Assembly (NCBI GenBank): GCA_021847015.1
Contig: JAJZVW010000002.1
Span: 62,001 to 126,000, forward strand
Origin: Pseudomonadota bacterium
Lineage (GTDB): Bacteria > Pseudomonadota > Alphaproteobacteria > Rhodospirillales > Magnetospirillaceae
Direction: 5' to 3'
DNA length: 64,000 nucleotides
This document shows, piece after piece, positions 6,580 through 40,249 of this stretch; position 1 is the first letter of the stretch, and each line of letters starts with the position of its first letter. Made by a program: the position numbers and the translations under genes. The notes beneath the pieces are model-generated. The model saw nothing but the letters and a program-made list of their open reading frames with translations. It was not told the DNA's origin and did not search any database.

Positions 6580-8846
6580 GGCTCGGCTTTCATTCGGCTG
6601 AGGAGAGTCCACACCGCGAGCGGCGTGGCCGGCATGTCCACATGCCGTACGGCGAGCGCGTCCGCAAGGGCGTTCATCACCGCCGGCGGTGCGCCCATGG
6701 CGCCCGCCTCGCCCGCGCCCTTGACGCCCAGCGGGTTGCCGGCGCAGGGGATGTCCACGGTGCTGAAATCGATCTTCGGCGCATGGACCGCGTGGGGCAG
6801 CGCGTATTCCGTCAGGCTGGCGGTGCGCAGCCGGCCGCTTTCCCGGTCGTAAACCACCCCTTCGAAAAGCGCTTGGGCGATCCCTTGAACGGCGCCGCCG
6901 ACGATCTGCCCTTTCAGCAGCAGGGGATTGAGGACGGTGCCGACATCGTCGACGATGGTGTAGCGGACGATGGCGGTCTGGCCTGTTTCCGGGTCCACGT
7001 CCGCCTCGCAGACGTGGCAGCCGTTGGGAAACGTGGCCCGTTTCGGCTTGAACCGCAGGCGCGCGGCCAGCGGCGCGCCCGCGTCGGCGGCGGCGCGGGC
7101 GACCGTGGCGAACGGTACGGCGCCCACGCCAGCGATATATCGGCCGTCCGCGAAGGCCACCTCGTCCTCCGGCGCGCCCAGCAGGCGGGCGGCGGTGGGC
7201 CGGCCTTGGGCGATCACCGTATCCAGCGCGCGGGCCAGCGCGCCACCCTGTTGAACCAGAGAGCGCGAGCCCGCCGTGCCTCCGCCCGAGCGGATGCGGA
7301 CGCTGTCTCCCTGGATCACCCGGATGGCGTCGATGGACAAGCCAAGTTCGGTGGCGACCATCTGGGCGTAGGCCGTCTCATGGCCTTGGCCGGTGGATTG
7401 GGTGCCCACCAGCACGGTGGCGGTGCCGTCGCCGCCGATGGAGAGATCGGCGCGTTCACCCCCCGTGCCGCCGGAGATTTCGACGTAATAGGCCAGGCCG
7501 ATGCCGCGGAGCCTCCCTCGCGCCGCGGATTGGGCGCGCCGGGCGGGGAAGTCCGGCCAATCGGAACGGGCCAGGGCATCGTCGAGGACGCGGGCGAAGT
7601 CGCCGGAATCGTAAGTATGGCCGCCGGCCGTGCGGTAGGGCATGGCCTCCGTGCGGATGAAATTGCGTCGGCGCAGCTCGACGCGGTCGATGCCCAGGTC
7701 CCGTGCCGCCACGTCCACCAGGCGCTCGATCAGATAGGCCGCCTCCGGGCGGCCGGCGCCCCGGTAGGAATCGACCGGGGTGGTGTTGGTGAGGACGCCC
7801 CGAACGCGGACGGACAGGGCCGGGACGGCGTAGGCCCCGGTCAGCATGCCCGCGTAACCGAGGGTGGGGACGAAGGCGCCGTATTGGGACAGATAGGCGC
7901 CCATATTAGCCAGGGTGGAGACCCGCAGCGCCAGGAACCGGCCGTCGCGGTCGAGCGCCAGTTCGGCGTGGCTGGCGTGGGCGCGGCCATGGGTATCGGA
8001 CAGGAACGACTCGCGACGGGTCGCGATCCATTTCACCGGCCGCCCCAGCCGGCGGGCGGCGGCGAGCACCAGCGCATGCTCCGGGAACGGCGCGATCTTG
8101 AGGCCGAACCCGCCGCCCACGTCGGGAGTGACCACCGTCAGGTCCTTCTTGGCCAGTCCCAGGATCGCGCACAACGCATCCCGCACGCCGTGGACACCCT
8201 GGCTGCCGGTGATGAGGGTCAGCCCGTGTCCCTCGGGCTTGGCCAGGGCGCCGCGCGGCTCCAGGGTGGTGGGCGCCACCCGGTTGTTGACGAGATCGAG
8301 GGCGACGCGGACGGGAGCCGCCGCGAAGGCAGCCTCGACATCCGGCGCGCTGCCCAGGGTCCAATCGAAGGCGACGTTGCCGGGGTGGGACGGAAAAAGC
8401 TCGGGCGCATGGAGCGCGCGGGCGGTATCCCCGTTGGCGGCCAGCGCGGTTGCGTCCAGGACCACCGACGCGGCGGCCGCCTCGGCCTGCTCGAGGGTTT
8501 CCGCGACCACGAAGGCCAGGGCCTCGCCCTCGTAGCGTGCCCGCGAGCCGGCCAGCACCGGGCGCATCGGCGGCGGTGGTGCCCCGTCGGGAACGAAATC
8601 GCAGGGCATGGGCCCGACTCCGAACGCCTCCAGTTCGGCGGCGGTCAGGACCAGCAGGACACCGGGGGCGTTCCGCGCCGCGTCGGTGTCCAGCCTGCGG
8701 ATGTCGGCATGGGCGAACGGTGAACGCACCACTGCGCCCCAAGCCTGGCCGGGCAGCGTGATATCGTCGGTGTACCGGCCGTGGCCGGTCAGAAAGCGGA
8801 CATCCTCGGTTCGCCGGAAGGGCTGGCCGATGCCGAAGCGGTGCAT
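6576..8846 (-). CDS. Molybdopterin-binding dehydrogenase large subunit (xanthine oxidase/CoxL-like family)
   Basis: A 756-residue molybdenum-hydroxylase large subunit, normally partnered by an FAD subunit and a 2Fe-2S subunit. It starts with the typical GIGQPFRRTEDVRFLTGHGRY. It shows TPDVGGGFGLKIAPFPEHAL, the Moco region TQSTGQGHETAYAQMVATELG and the catalytic-Glu motif NPLGVKGAGEAGAMGAPPAV near the end. The position of the CO-dehydrogenase AYxCSFR loop reads SYRGAGRPEAAY, which argues against a true form I CO dehydrogenase; the substrate is unknown. No medium- or small-subunit gene is adjacent: cysQ follows with ATGA overlap and a small unknown gene precedes. Confidence 0.88.
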   Translation of the reverse strand: MHRFGIGQPFRRTEDVRFLTGHGRYTDDITLPGQAWGAVVRSPFAHADIRRLDTDAARNAPGVLLVLTAAELEAFGVGPMPCDFVPDGAPPPPMRPVLAGSRARYEGEALAFVVAETLEQAEAAAASVVLDATALAANGDTARALHAPELFPSHPGNVAFDWTLGSAPDVEAAFAAAPVRVALDLVNNRVAPTTLEPRGALAKPEGHGLTLITGSQGVHGVRDALCAILGLAKKDLTVVTPDVGGGFGLKIAPFPEHALVLAAARRLGRPVKWIATRRESFLSDTHGRAHASHAELALDRDGRFLALRVSTLANMGAYLSQYGAFVPTLGYAGMLTGAYAVPALSVRVRGVLTNTTPVDSYRGAGRPEAAYLIERLVDVAARDLGIDRVELRRRNFIRTEAMPYRTAGGHTYDSGDFARVLDDALARSDWPDFPARRAQSAARGRLRGIGLAYYVEISGGTGGERADLSIGGDGTATVLVGTQSTGQGHETAYAQMVATELGLSIDAIRVIQGDSVRIRSGGGTAGSRSLVQQGGALARALDTVIAQGRPTAARLLGAPEDEVAFADGRYIAGVGAVPFATVARAAADAGAPLAARLRFKPKRATFPNGCHVCEADVDPETGQTAIVRYTIVDDVGTVLNPLLLKGQIVGGAVQGIAQALFEGVVYDRESGRLRTASLTEYALPHAVHAPKIDFSTVDIPCAGNPLGVKGAGEAGAMGAPPAVMNALADALAVRHVDMPATPLAVWTLLSRMKAEP

Positions 8847-25944: not shown

Positions 25945-25961
25945 CGGTCCTTCCCCCCCTT

Positions 25962-35351: not shown

Positions 35352-35592
35352 CTTCTTCTCCTTGGACTAGTTTTCCAACGAACTAATCGGTTGGGTCCGC
35401 CCCGACTGCCGGGGCGGTGGATGGGGGCACCGATAGAATGATGTCCTGCATCCAAATAACAGGCGTCAATGGCAGAACTTTGTCCGAAATGCAATCCGTC
35501 CCATGCTTTCGATGGTCAGGAAATCGCTCTTCGGCGGGTTCCTGCCCGGGGCCGGCTCGCTCCGCCGGCCGGTTTGGTGTAAGGAGGGCGCC

Positions 35593-38097
35593 ATGAATGC
35601 CCTTCCCATCGCCGCGATGCTGCCCCGGATCCGCCGCGTCCTTGCGGCTGGAAACGGCATGGTGCTGCAAGCGCCGCCCGGCGCCGGCAAGAGCACCGGC
35701 GTGCCGCCAGCGCTGCTGGACCAGGACTGGCTTGGGGGGCGCAAGGTGGTGATGCTGGAACCCCGGCGCCTCGCCGCCCGCTCGGCCGCCGCCCGCATCG
35801 CCGAAATGCTAGGGGAACCGGTGGGGCGGACGGTGGGCTACCGCATCCGCTTCGAGGCCAAGGTCGGTCCCGACACCCGCATCGAGGTGGTCACCGAAGG
35901 CGTCCTTACCCGCATGCTCCAGGACGATCCCGAATTGGCGGGCGTCGGCGCGGTGATTTTCGACGAATTCCACGAGCGCAGCCTGAACGCCGATTTCGGC
36001 CTCGCCCTGTGCCTGGAGGTGCGCGCGGCGCTCAGGCCCGATCTCAGGCTGGTGGTGATGTCGGCGACCATCGACGGGGCGCCCGTGTCGCGCCTGATGG
36101 GGGATTGCCCGGTCGTCACCAGCGAAGGGCGCGCGTTCCCGGTGGAGACCCGGTTCCTCGGCCGCGCGGATTCCCAACGCTTTCCCGATGCGGTGGCCGC
36201 GGCGGTGGTCCGTGCCCTGGACGACGAGGCCGAGGGCGACGTGCTGGTTTTCCTGCCTGGTGCCGGGGAAATCCGCCGCGTCGAAGGGCTCCTTGCCGAT
36301 AGCCCGGCGTTGGGGGACGCGGTGGTCGCGCCCCTCTACGGCGATCTGTCTCAGGAGGCGCAGGACCGTGCGCTCCGGCCGCTGCGCGACGGCCGGCGGA
36401 AGATCGTGCTTGCCACCGGCATCGCCGAAACCAGCCTCACCATCGAAGGCGTTCGGGTGGTGGTGGACGGCGGTCTGATGCGGCTGCCGCGCTTCGATCC
36501 GGGTTCGGGCATGACCCGCCTGGTCACCCTGCCGGTCAGCCGGGCTTCCGCCGACCAGCGCCGGGGCCGCGCGGGGCGCCTGGGGCCGGGCGTGTGCTAC
36601 CGCCTGTGGTCCGAGGCCGAGGATCGCGCGCTGGCGCCGTTCACGGCGCCGGAGATAGTGGAAGCGGATCTGGCGCCGCTCGCCCTCGACCTGGCGCAGT
36701 GGGGGAATGGCGATTTGGCGTGGCTCGATCCCCCGCCGGCCGCGTCCTTGGCCGGCGCCCGCGAGTTGCTGTCCGAATTGGGGGCCGTCGATCCCCAGGG
36801 AAGGATCACCGCTCACGGCCGCGCCATGAACCGGCTGTCCTTCCATCCCCGCCTTGCGCACATGATCCTGAAGGCGCGCGATCTGGGGTTGGGGGGGCTG
36901 GCCTGTGACCTGGCGGCGCTGCTGTCCGAGCGCGACGTGCTCAAGGCCGAGCGGGGCTGCCGGGATGCCGACATCCGCTTGAGGATCGACGCCCTGCGCA
37001 CCGGACAGGGGTTCGCGCCGCACCACGGATTGGCCATCGACCGCGGCGCGCTGGTTCGTGTCCGCCAGGCGGCAGGGGACGGACGGCGGCGGTTGGGGCT
37101 GACGGCGGGCGAGGAGGGGGGCGGTAGCGCCGACAGCGGCCTCGTCCTCGCCTTCGCCTATCCCGACCGTATCGCCCGGCGGCGGGGCGGCGAGCGGCGT
37201 TATGCGCTGGCGGGCGGCGGCGGTGCCTTTTTCGCCGATCCCGAGCCGCTCTCGGCCGAGGATTGGCTGGTGGCCGCCGAACTGGATGGCGACCGGCGCG
37301 AGGCGCGCATCTTCCTGGCCGCGCCGTTGGCCAAGGCCGAGATCGAACGTCATTTCGCCGAGGACATCGCCACCGTCGAGGCGGTGGAATGGAACGCGCG
37401 GGACGAGGCGGTGTCCACACGCCGCCAGCGCCGCCTGTGGCGGCTCGTCCTCGATGACCGGCCGTTGCCGGCCCCCGATCCCGCCGCCGTGGCGGCGGCG
37501 ATGGCCGACGGCGTGCGGGGCATGGGGCTGGGAAGCCTTCCGTGGACGGGCGATCTGGAAAACCTGCGCCGCCGCGTGGCGTTCCTGGCCGGCGTCGAAC
37601 CCGACGGCGGCTGGCCGGACCTGTCGGATGCCGCGCTCCTGACGACGCTGGAGGATTGGCTCGGGCCCTATCTGACGGGGGTTACCCGCCGGGCCCATCT
37701 CGCCCGCGTCGATCTGGCCGGCGCGCTGGGGAACCGTCTCGATTGGGAGCGCCGCCGCCGGCTCGACGAGCTTGCCCCCACCCATGTGGTGGTGCCCTCC
37801 GGCAGCCGCGTCCCGCTCGATTATTCCGGGGAAATCCCGGTGCTCGCCGTGCGCTTGCAGGAAATGTTCGGCTGCGCCGACACCCCCCGGATCGCTGCCG
37901 GCACGGTGCCGGTGCTGCTCCATCTGCTCTCGCCGGCGCGCCGGCCGGTGCAGGTGACCCGCGACCTTGCCAGCTTCTGGGCCAACGCCTATCGCGCGGT
38001 GAAGGCCGATCTCAAGGGCCAGTACCCAAAGCATTGGTGGCCGGACGATCCCATGCAGGCCGAACCCACCGCGCGGGCCAAACCGCGAGGCCGGTGA
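35593..38097 (+). CDS. hrpB: ATP-dependent RNA helicase HrpB
   Basis: An 834-residue DEAH-type helicase. Walker A: LQAPPGAGKSTGVPPALL (residues about 25-42). The DEAH box reads IFDEFHERSLNADFGLALCL, the DEFH form usual for HrpB. Motif III is VVMSATIDG, and motif VI is SRASADQRRGRAGRLGPGVC. HA2 and the HrpB C-terminal domain follow, ending with DLASFWANAYRAVKADLKGQ and YPKHWWPDDP. ATG 35593 follows a perfect AAGGAGG; an in-frame ATG 30 codons upstream lacks support. Role: RNA remodelling, exact target unknown. Confidence 0.93.
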   Translation: MNALPIAAMLPRIRRVLAAGNGMVLQAPPGAGKSTGVPPALLDQDWLGGRKVVMLEPRRLAARSAAARIAEMLGEPVGRTVGYRIRFEAKVGPDTRIEVVTEGVLTRMLQDDPELAGVGAVIFDEFHERSLNADFGLALCLEVRAALRPDLRLVVMSATIDGAPVSRLMGDCPVVTSEGRAFPVETRFLGRADSQRFPDAVAAAVVRALDDEAEGDVLVFLPGAGEIRRVEGLLADSPALGDAVVAPLYGDLSQEAQDRALRPLRDGRRKIVLATGIAETSLTIEGVRVVVDGGLMRLPRFDPGSGMTRLVTLPVSRASADQRRGRAGRLGPGVCYRLWSEAEDRALAPFTAPEIVEADLAPLALDLAQWGNGDLAWLDPPPAASLAGARELLSELGAVDPQGRITAHGRAMNRLSFHPRLAHMILKARDLGLGGLACDLAALLSERDVLKAERGCRDADIRLRIDALRTGQGFAPHHGLAIDRGALVRVRQAAGDGRRRLGLTAGEEGGGSADSGLVLAFAYPDRIARRRGGERRYALAGGGGAFFADPEPLSAEDWLVAAELDGDRREARIFLAAPLAKAEIERHFAEDIATVEAVEWNARDEAVSTRRQRRLWRLVLDDRPLPAPDPAAVAAAMADGVRGMGLGSLPWTGDLENLRRRVAFLAGVEPDGGWPDLSDAALLTTLEDWLGPYLTGVTRRAHLARVDLAGALGNRLDWERRRRLDELAPTHVVVPSGSRVPLDYSGEIPVLAVRLQEMFGCADTPRIAAGTVPVLLHLLSPARRPVQVTRDLASFWANAYRAVKADLKGQYPKHWWPDDPMQAEPTARAKPRGR

Positions 38098-38354
38098 GCG
38101 GAGACGGGCGTCCATCGCGGGGCGGCCGAAAGCGGTTCGCCACCATGGCGGACGTCATCCCGCGAACGCCCAGGGATCGAAACCGCCCCCGGAGAGATGC
38201 TCAGGAATTCAATCGCCTGGAGCCGCCCCGGGCCGACGTGCCGGCGGCACTGACGGCCGAGGTCGCGGTTGGGCGCCTCTTGCCCTCATCGCGTCTTGCT
38301 TATATACGCCTAACAGTGGTGTTTCCGATAAGGAATCGTCTCGTGGAGAGGAGA

Positions 38355-39087
38355 ATGCGACTCGGTAGCATCGGGGCAATGCTGGCCGCTTCCATCCTGT
38401 TGACGGGCTGCGCGGCCACCCAGACCGCGCTCAGCCACCATGACCTCTCGGTACAGACGAAAATGACCGATTCGATCTTCCTTGACCCGGTTCCGCCCAA
38501 CGAGCACACGATATTCGTGCAGGTGCGGAATACCACCGATCAGCCGCAATTCACGATCGAAGGCGACTTGCGGGACGCGCTGGTGGCCAAGGGCTATACC
38601 GTGGTCGCCGATCCCTCCGCCGCGCATTACCTTCTCCAGGTCAATGTCCTCTCGGTCGGCAAGGCGAACCCGTCGGCGGCGCAAAAGTCGTTCCTGGGCG
38701 GTTACGGCAGCGCCATAGCGGGTGCCGCCGCCGGTGCCGCCATCGGCGTGGTCGGGGGGGGGATCCGCCGGTGCCGGGCTGGCGGGAGGCCTTCTCGGCG
38801 GTGCCGCTTCGCTGCTGGCGGATTCGCTCGTCAAGGACGTCACCTATGCGGTGATCACCGATGTGCAGATCAGTGAAAAGAGCGGCGCCGCCGTGTCGGA
38901 GACCTCCGAGTCCCATGTCAAGCAGGGGCGGACCGCGACGAAACAGCAATTCGTGTCCGAATCGACCCATCGGAAGACGTGGCAGACGCGGGTGATGTCC
39001 ACCGCGGACCAGGTCAACCTTGACTTCGCCGATGCGATGCCCGCTCTGGAAAAGGGGCTGACGACGTCGATCTCGGGACTCTTCTGA
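38355..39087 (+). pseudogene. traT: TraT-like outer-membrane lipoprotein, frameshifted at a G9 tract
   Basis: Frame 1 from ATG 38355 gives a lipoprotein signal (AASILLTGCAATQ, acylated Cys19) and TraT sequence (VQTKMTDSIFLDPVPPNEHT, AHYLLQVNVLSVGKANPSAA) up to the Gly-rich membrane-inserting region. Coding then jumps to another frame (AGGLLGGAASLLADSLVKDV, TYAVITDVQISEKSGAAVSE), ending ALEKGLTTSISGLF at 39087. The switch coincides with nine G at 38754-38762. With eight G the two halves join to one 243-residue protein, the usual TraT length. TraT mediates surface exclusion and serum resistance on plasmids; chromosomal homologues are less studied. Phase-variable gene, real mutation, or sequencing error. 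Confidence 0.8.
38754..38762 (+). repeat. Poly-G9 tract at the traT frameshift
   Basis: Nine consecutive G lie within the Gly-rich coding region, exactly where the reading frame breaks. Such tracts slip during replication. G8 or G11 would restore the frame; G9 and G10 would not. Confidence 0.85.
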
Positions 39088-39355: not shown

Positions 39356-40249
39356 ATGGCTCAGAGCGGCGCGGCCAAGCCCAGCTTTCAGCAGCTCATT
39401 CTCACCCTTCAGAACTTCTGGGCGGAGCAGGGGTGCCTGATACTGCAACCTTACGACATGGAGGTCGGCGCCGGCACCTTCCATCCCGCGACCACGTTGC
39501 GCGCGCTGGGGCCCGAGCCGTGGCGCTGCGCCTATGTGCAGCCGTCGCGCCGGCCCAAGGACGGGCGTTACGGCGAGAACCCCAACCGTCTTCAACACTA
39601 TTACCAGTTTCAGGTGCTGCTGAAGCCCTCGCCGCAGAATTCCCAGGAGCTTTACCTGGAAAGCCTGCGCCGGCTCGGCATCGATCCTTTGGCCCACGAC
39701 ATCCGCTTCGTCGAGGACGACTGGGAAAGCCCGACTCTGGGCGCCTGGGGTCTTGGCTGGGAGGTGTGGTGCGACGGCATGGAGGTGACCCAGTTCACGT
39801 ACTTCCAGCAGGTGGGCGGCATCGAATGCGATCCCGTCGCCGTGGAACTGACCTACGGCCTGGAACGGCTCGCCATGTACATCCAGGGGGTCGAGAACGT
39901 GTACGACCTCGACTTCAACGGCCGGGGCGTCCGCTACGGCGACGTTTTCCTTCAGGCGGAGCGCGAATATTCCGCCCACAATTTCGAGTACGCGAACACC
40001 GACATGCTCCTGCGCCACTTCCTGGACGCCGAGAAGGAGTGCGAGAGCCTGCTCGCCGCCGGTCTGGCGCTGCCGGCTTACGACCAGTGCATCAAGGCCA
40101 GCCACCGCTTCAATCTGCTCGACGCGCGGGGGGTGATCTCGGTGACCGAGCGGCAGGCTTACATCGGCCGCGTGCGCGCCCTGGCCAAGGCCTGCTGCGA
40201 AGGCTGGCTGGCGTCGCGCACGCCGCATCCTGCGGGCGGGGAGGCTTAA
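39356..40249 (+). CDS. glyQ: Glycine-tRNA ligase alpha subunit
   Basis: Catalytic alpha subunit of the heterotetrameric bacterial glycyl-tRNA synthetase, 297 residues. [20 protein letters not shown] and [20 protein letters not shown] form motif-like blocks. Further on are [20 protein letters not shown] and [23 protein letters not shown] 39356 matches the usual start; an in-frame start 15 codons upstream is unlikely. glyS starts 4 bases after it. Confidence 0.96.

Follow-up and report, generated by a model that had tools for sequence, protein, structure and literature searches.

The TraT-family (PF05818) outer-membrane lipoprotein gene described here, traT, is interrupted at nine consecutive G, which raises the question of whether the interruption is a contingency switch of a surface protein, as the original prediction proposed, or a frame break of a more ordinary kind. 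We approached this question through the structure of the gene, its distribution, the conservation of its two halves, and the G/C runs of the window (the whole 64-kb stretch of DNA that was analysed) and of the genome to which it belongs.

Two halves of traT meeting at a G9 run

The ATG at position 38355 opens the frame of the N-terminal half of the lipoprotein, which runs to the G9 tract at 38754-38762 of the window sequence. The reading frame changes exactly there, and the C-terminal half continues in the next frame to a stop at 39087 (Table 1). Over 180 nt, a codon-usage score trained on the genes of the window reached +17.9 upstream and +13.7 downstream of the tract, in different frames, both of them strongly coding. 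The Pfam TraT profile PF05818 matched two adjoining frames, at profile positions 1-104 (E = 9.6e-40) and 106-214 (E = 4.4e-33), and the two halves together cover it over the whole family length, with about one profile position absent at the joint. A lipoprotein signal peptide with a lipidated cysteine (LTG-C) is present, the alignment to the solved TraT structure 9fs5 begins at this cysteine, and the structures 9fs5, 9fsm and 9e2v all align to both halves. The original prediction had placed the two halves in different frames meeting exactly at the tract, had assigned them to a TraT-like lipoprotein and had described both as being in good codon use; the sequence and codon scores, the profile matches together with the lipobox, and the codon scores again, respectively, bear these claims out.

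The codons of the G run correspond to the few residues between the pieces aligned to 9fs5 and 9fsm. A short periplasmic turn joins the two membrane helices of TraT (PMC12658005), and by these alignments the glycines encoded by the tract fall at this turn. Since its frame is broken at the tract, the gene was filed as a broken TraT gene and not as a working TraT, for which a single open reading frame gives a decameric surface protein. As it stands, the frame of the 5′ half, which is that of the open reading frame 37542-38876, stops at 38874-38876 after about 173 codons, the last of which form a meaningless out-of-frame tail. The present product should accordingly be read as a predicted protein of about 173 residues without the second helix, the β-hairpin and half of the core, and we infer that this truncated TraT is non-functional.

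Table 1. Coordinates of traT, its parts and its neighbours in the window.
Feature	Coordinates	Strand	Basis
Upstream neighbour HrpB, ATP-dependent helicase	35503..38097	+	PF08482, PF00270, PF00271
5′ half of traT: signal peptide and lipobox (LTG-C), first part of extracellular core, first membrane helix	38355..38753	+	PF05818 positions 1-104
G9 run, frame change, codons of the short inter-helix turn	38754..38762	+	Sequence, frame switch, 9fs5/9fsm position, loop (PMC12658005)
3′ half of traT, in the next frame to the stop: second membrane helix, β-hairpin, end of core	38763..39087	+	PF05818 positions 106-214
Out-of-frame tail from the present frame	38763..38876	+	Open reading frame 37542-38876
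Downstream neighbour glyQ, glycyl-tRNA synthetase alpha	39359..40249	+	PF02091 (E = 3.6e-150)

A simple gene-finding pass over the 64-kb window revealed no second true frame break, leaving traT as the sole case. The places flagged at 6580, 50725 and 52409 were rejected as overlaps of starts and stops, and anything else flagged was the edge of the window.

Distribution of traT and conservation of its halves

This traT is the only TraT in its own genome, and TraH (PF06122) of the F-type transfer system, the sole marker tested, was not found in the genome. A plasmid surface-exclusion TraT belongs to a transfer operon; here that one F-type marker was not found, and the neighbours are hrpB and glyQ. 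The copy is a chromosomal, non-plasmid homologue, and such homologues occur in several phyla and in varied surroundings, with a function that is unknown (PMC11733297). Synteny was tested through glyQ in 29 loci of the same family, whose glyQ genes are about 89-94% identical. The results showed that traT is absent upstream of glyQ in all 28 loci holding about 1.5 kb of upstream sequence; the 29th (L174) was left out as it starts too near a contig end to be judged. At this site traT thus occurs only sporadically, and it is probably dispensable here.

The most similar loci (a single-protein query, eight loci) reached at best 59% identity, and none came from the same species. The closest matches were a metagenome-assembled genome (MAG) titled Rhodospirillales bacterium (59%), a Geminicoccaceae MAG and several gammaproteobacteria, and a search with the C-terminal half among 317 genomes of the order yielded four genomes besides its own. 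The same-order match L089 is the same gene as L078, the Rhodospirillales MAG copy. Seventeen homologous loci were read. One of them ends with its contig short of the site and two represent one gene, which leaves 15 distinct homologues that span the site, all outside the genus of the present genome. The original prediction had called for the length of the tract to be compared in related strains. None of these 15 homologues carries a G/C run of at least 6 within the gene, nor is any of them broken at the site equivalent to G9. The tract is thus not conserved, and, as far as these sequences indicate, neither the tract nor the split frame is common to the TraT family.

A family search of 385 genomes of the class found one other TraT copy that looks damaged. 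This locus (L136:1501-1782, genome G528), in a small AT-rich alphaproteobacterial genome, holds the C-terminal half of TraT without the N-terminal half; it is decayed, and not at a G run.

Comparison with nine homologues revealed that 17 of 17 invariant residues are kept in the N-terminal half and 14 of 15 in the C-terminal half, and that the terminal branch lengths of both halves lie within the range of intact genes. By these measures the C-terminal half looks undecayed and both halves look still constrained, so the break should be recent, or exist only in the assembly, or be reversible. Slippage of RNA polymerase or of the ribosome on the G run would be a further way of reconciling a broken frame with a 3′ half that is still conserved, in that some full-length TraT could be made from the broken gene, and G9 is a plausible slippery site. 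We regard such recoding as extremely unlikely: a 121-nt segment across the tract folds no more stably than shuffled sequences do (z = −0.70), and the tract and split frame are conserved in no homologue, whereas programmed sites usually are.

The explanation to which we lean, giving it about an even chance, is a recent and real slippage indel. Nearly all invariant residues are kept and the branch lengths are as in intact genes, and the break is therefore judged to be young. In a GC-rich genome, the codons of the glycine turn would have become GGG by drift and so formed the G run, and a one-base change in its length would recently have broken the frame of traT. The sequenced copy would then yield only a truncated lipoprotein, consisting of the N-terminal part and the first membrane helix followed by the out-of-frame tail, and the change would be a simple slippage indel, with no maintained switch, in a gene that is sporadic and probably dispensable. 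On this explanation the indel is presumably real in the cell, recent and unselected for switching; it would be an ordinary pseudogene event, mainly useful for correct annotation, as one split gene and not two. The same combination, a young break and conserved halves, would be shown by a switching gene as well.

G/C runs in the window and in the genome

In the window, seven G/C runs of at least 7 were observed versus 30 expected under a first-order model, and one of at least 9 versus 3.1 expected; GGGGGGG matched nine times versus 43 in shuffled sequences. The G9 tract is not beyond chance, and G/C runs are rarer than expected in this GC-rich sequence. GGG accounts for 22.5% of the Gly codons in the window, any Gly triplet has a chance of about 5% of starting GGGGGG, and the proteins of the window contain 13 runs of at least three Gly. 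With such codon use, a long G run at a Gly triplet should turn up occasionally.

Genome-wide, 18 distinct G/C runs of at least 9 were found, and each was read with its flanks. The run in traT was the only one among them found to break a frame. At least five runs of 9-10 lie in frame inside Pfam domains, namely those of FixH (C9), PepA cytosol aminopeptidase (G10), a short-chain dehydrogenase (C10), a ParA/BcsQ-like ATPase (C9) and a PCuAC copper chaperone (C9); the other runs of at least 9 are in frame at other places in genes, or else lie at gene junctions or in intergenic sequence. Shorter runs were also examined, 59 of length 8 (among the matches listed) and 26 of length 7, and no frame break was recognised at these further runs, about 85 in all, among which the apparent shifts all proved on inspection to be gene junctions, and the runs whose coding signal was confined to one side were inspected in part. 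Candidate frame shifts at L051, L058, L125, L067 and window position 25953 were rejected by eye as gene junctions, for example psd/pss and phoU/phoB.

Several runs deserve mention in their own right. The longest G run of the genome is a G13 (L066:1570-1582, contig C35), which lies close to where a coding stretch ends, on a contig of only 5.9 kb; compared with the traT run, it would be the stronger candidate for variable length. Ten-base G/C runs are in frame within two genes, one of the leucyl-aminopeptidase type and one for a short-chain dehydrogenase (L068:1999-2008 and L070:2003-2012), and these would be useful as internal controls for read errors. An intergenic C11 (L008, contig C32:91067-91077) lies inside an inverted repeat (gcgggtcatcct ... 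aatcggatgacccgc), which is possibly a REP-like element or a terminator.

These counts bear on the second way of having two constrained halves, namely that the broken frame arose in sequencing or assembly and that the living strain has an intact traT. The genome is a draft in 77 contigs, both halves look fully constrained, and the lengths of G tracts in reference genomes can be wrong (PMC9187656); single BLAST-validated frame breaks are expected to be mostly sequencing errors (PMC3711429). Such errors also seem to occur in related drafts, since a draft genome from the same family has the essential glyQ apparently divided between two frames (G035:C60:159323-160151). On the other side, at least five other runs of 9-10 in the same assembly are read in frame through their Pfam domains, and no other frame break was found in the window. 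An error at the tract is in our estimate somewhat unlikely, and the original prediction was apt in cautioning that decay or error would give an identical picture.

The contingency reading and known systems

The third way is that the locus is a true contingency locus, in which replication slippage at the G run toggles a surface TraT at high frequency and the tract is kept by selection. The layout agrees with this: a surface lipoprotein gene, otherwise intact, is broken exactly at a simple repeat, and a comparable layout is a proven switch in Bifidobacterium breve, whose pilus genes are interrupted at G10 and G11 tracts (PMC9187656). The repeat is, however, found in no homologue, and it is neither longer nor commoner than chance, given that G/C runs are depleted and that several of the 18 long runs lie in ordinary genes. 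Runs of equal or greater length in housekeeping genes mean that there is no repertoire confined to surface genes, and the glycines have a structural reason in the turn between the helices. Moreover, mutS is present, so that mismatch repair is probably working, and in B. breve cultures G10 slips far less than the strongly switching G11 (PMC9187656). Of the contingency claim, then, the layout stood, with intact halves and a break at a G tract, whereas the meaning attached to it found no positive support, in view of the tract being absent from homologues, the depletion of runs, the in-frame runs in housekeeping genes, the glycine turn and the sporadic occurrence of the gene.

We therefore consider a maintained switch improbable, and a poly-G switch of a chromosomal TraT in an alphaproteobacterium that controls, for example, resistance to phages, predators or conjugation very unlikely. 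A limited literature search found nothing pertinent on phase variation in TraT, Azospirillum or Brucella. If switching were true, it would provide a contingency gene of the poly-G type for a bacterial group in which that search found none, as well as a handle on the role of chromosomal TraT beyond plasmid exclusion, which was left open by PMC11733297. Overall, the locus is probably a traT gene with an ordinary frameshift at a G run, and the contingency reading is possible but unsupported.

The gene was also compared with known systems. It resembles the TraT family, including the TraT of F and of pKpQIL (9fs5, 9fsm, 9e2v), in its full-length match, its lipobox and its two helices with a short turn, and differs in that its frame is broken at the codons of that turn. 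Its chromosomal position, remote from transfer genes, is shared with the chromosomal TraT lineages of many environmental bacteria (PMC11733297). With B. breve bbr_0113 (G11) and bbr_1889 (G10) it shares two open reading frames of one surface-protein gene that meet at a G run, and B. breve is likewise a fairly GC-rich bacterium; length variation was measured there by maximum depth sequencing, whereas the run here is shorter and known from one assembly (PMC9187656). In the GeneTack analysis, a call of phase variation needs clusters of at least five frame breaks with a nearby repeat, and single frame breaks supported by Pfam and BLAST are assigned to recent indels or sequencing errors (PMC3711429). 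The traT case, one broken gene with family matches on both sides and no conserved break site in its homologues, fits this class of singleton frameshifted genes with no difference noted.
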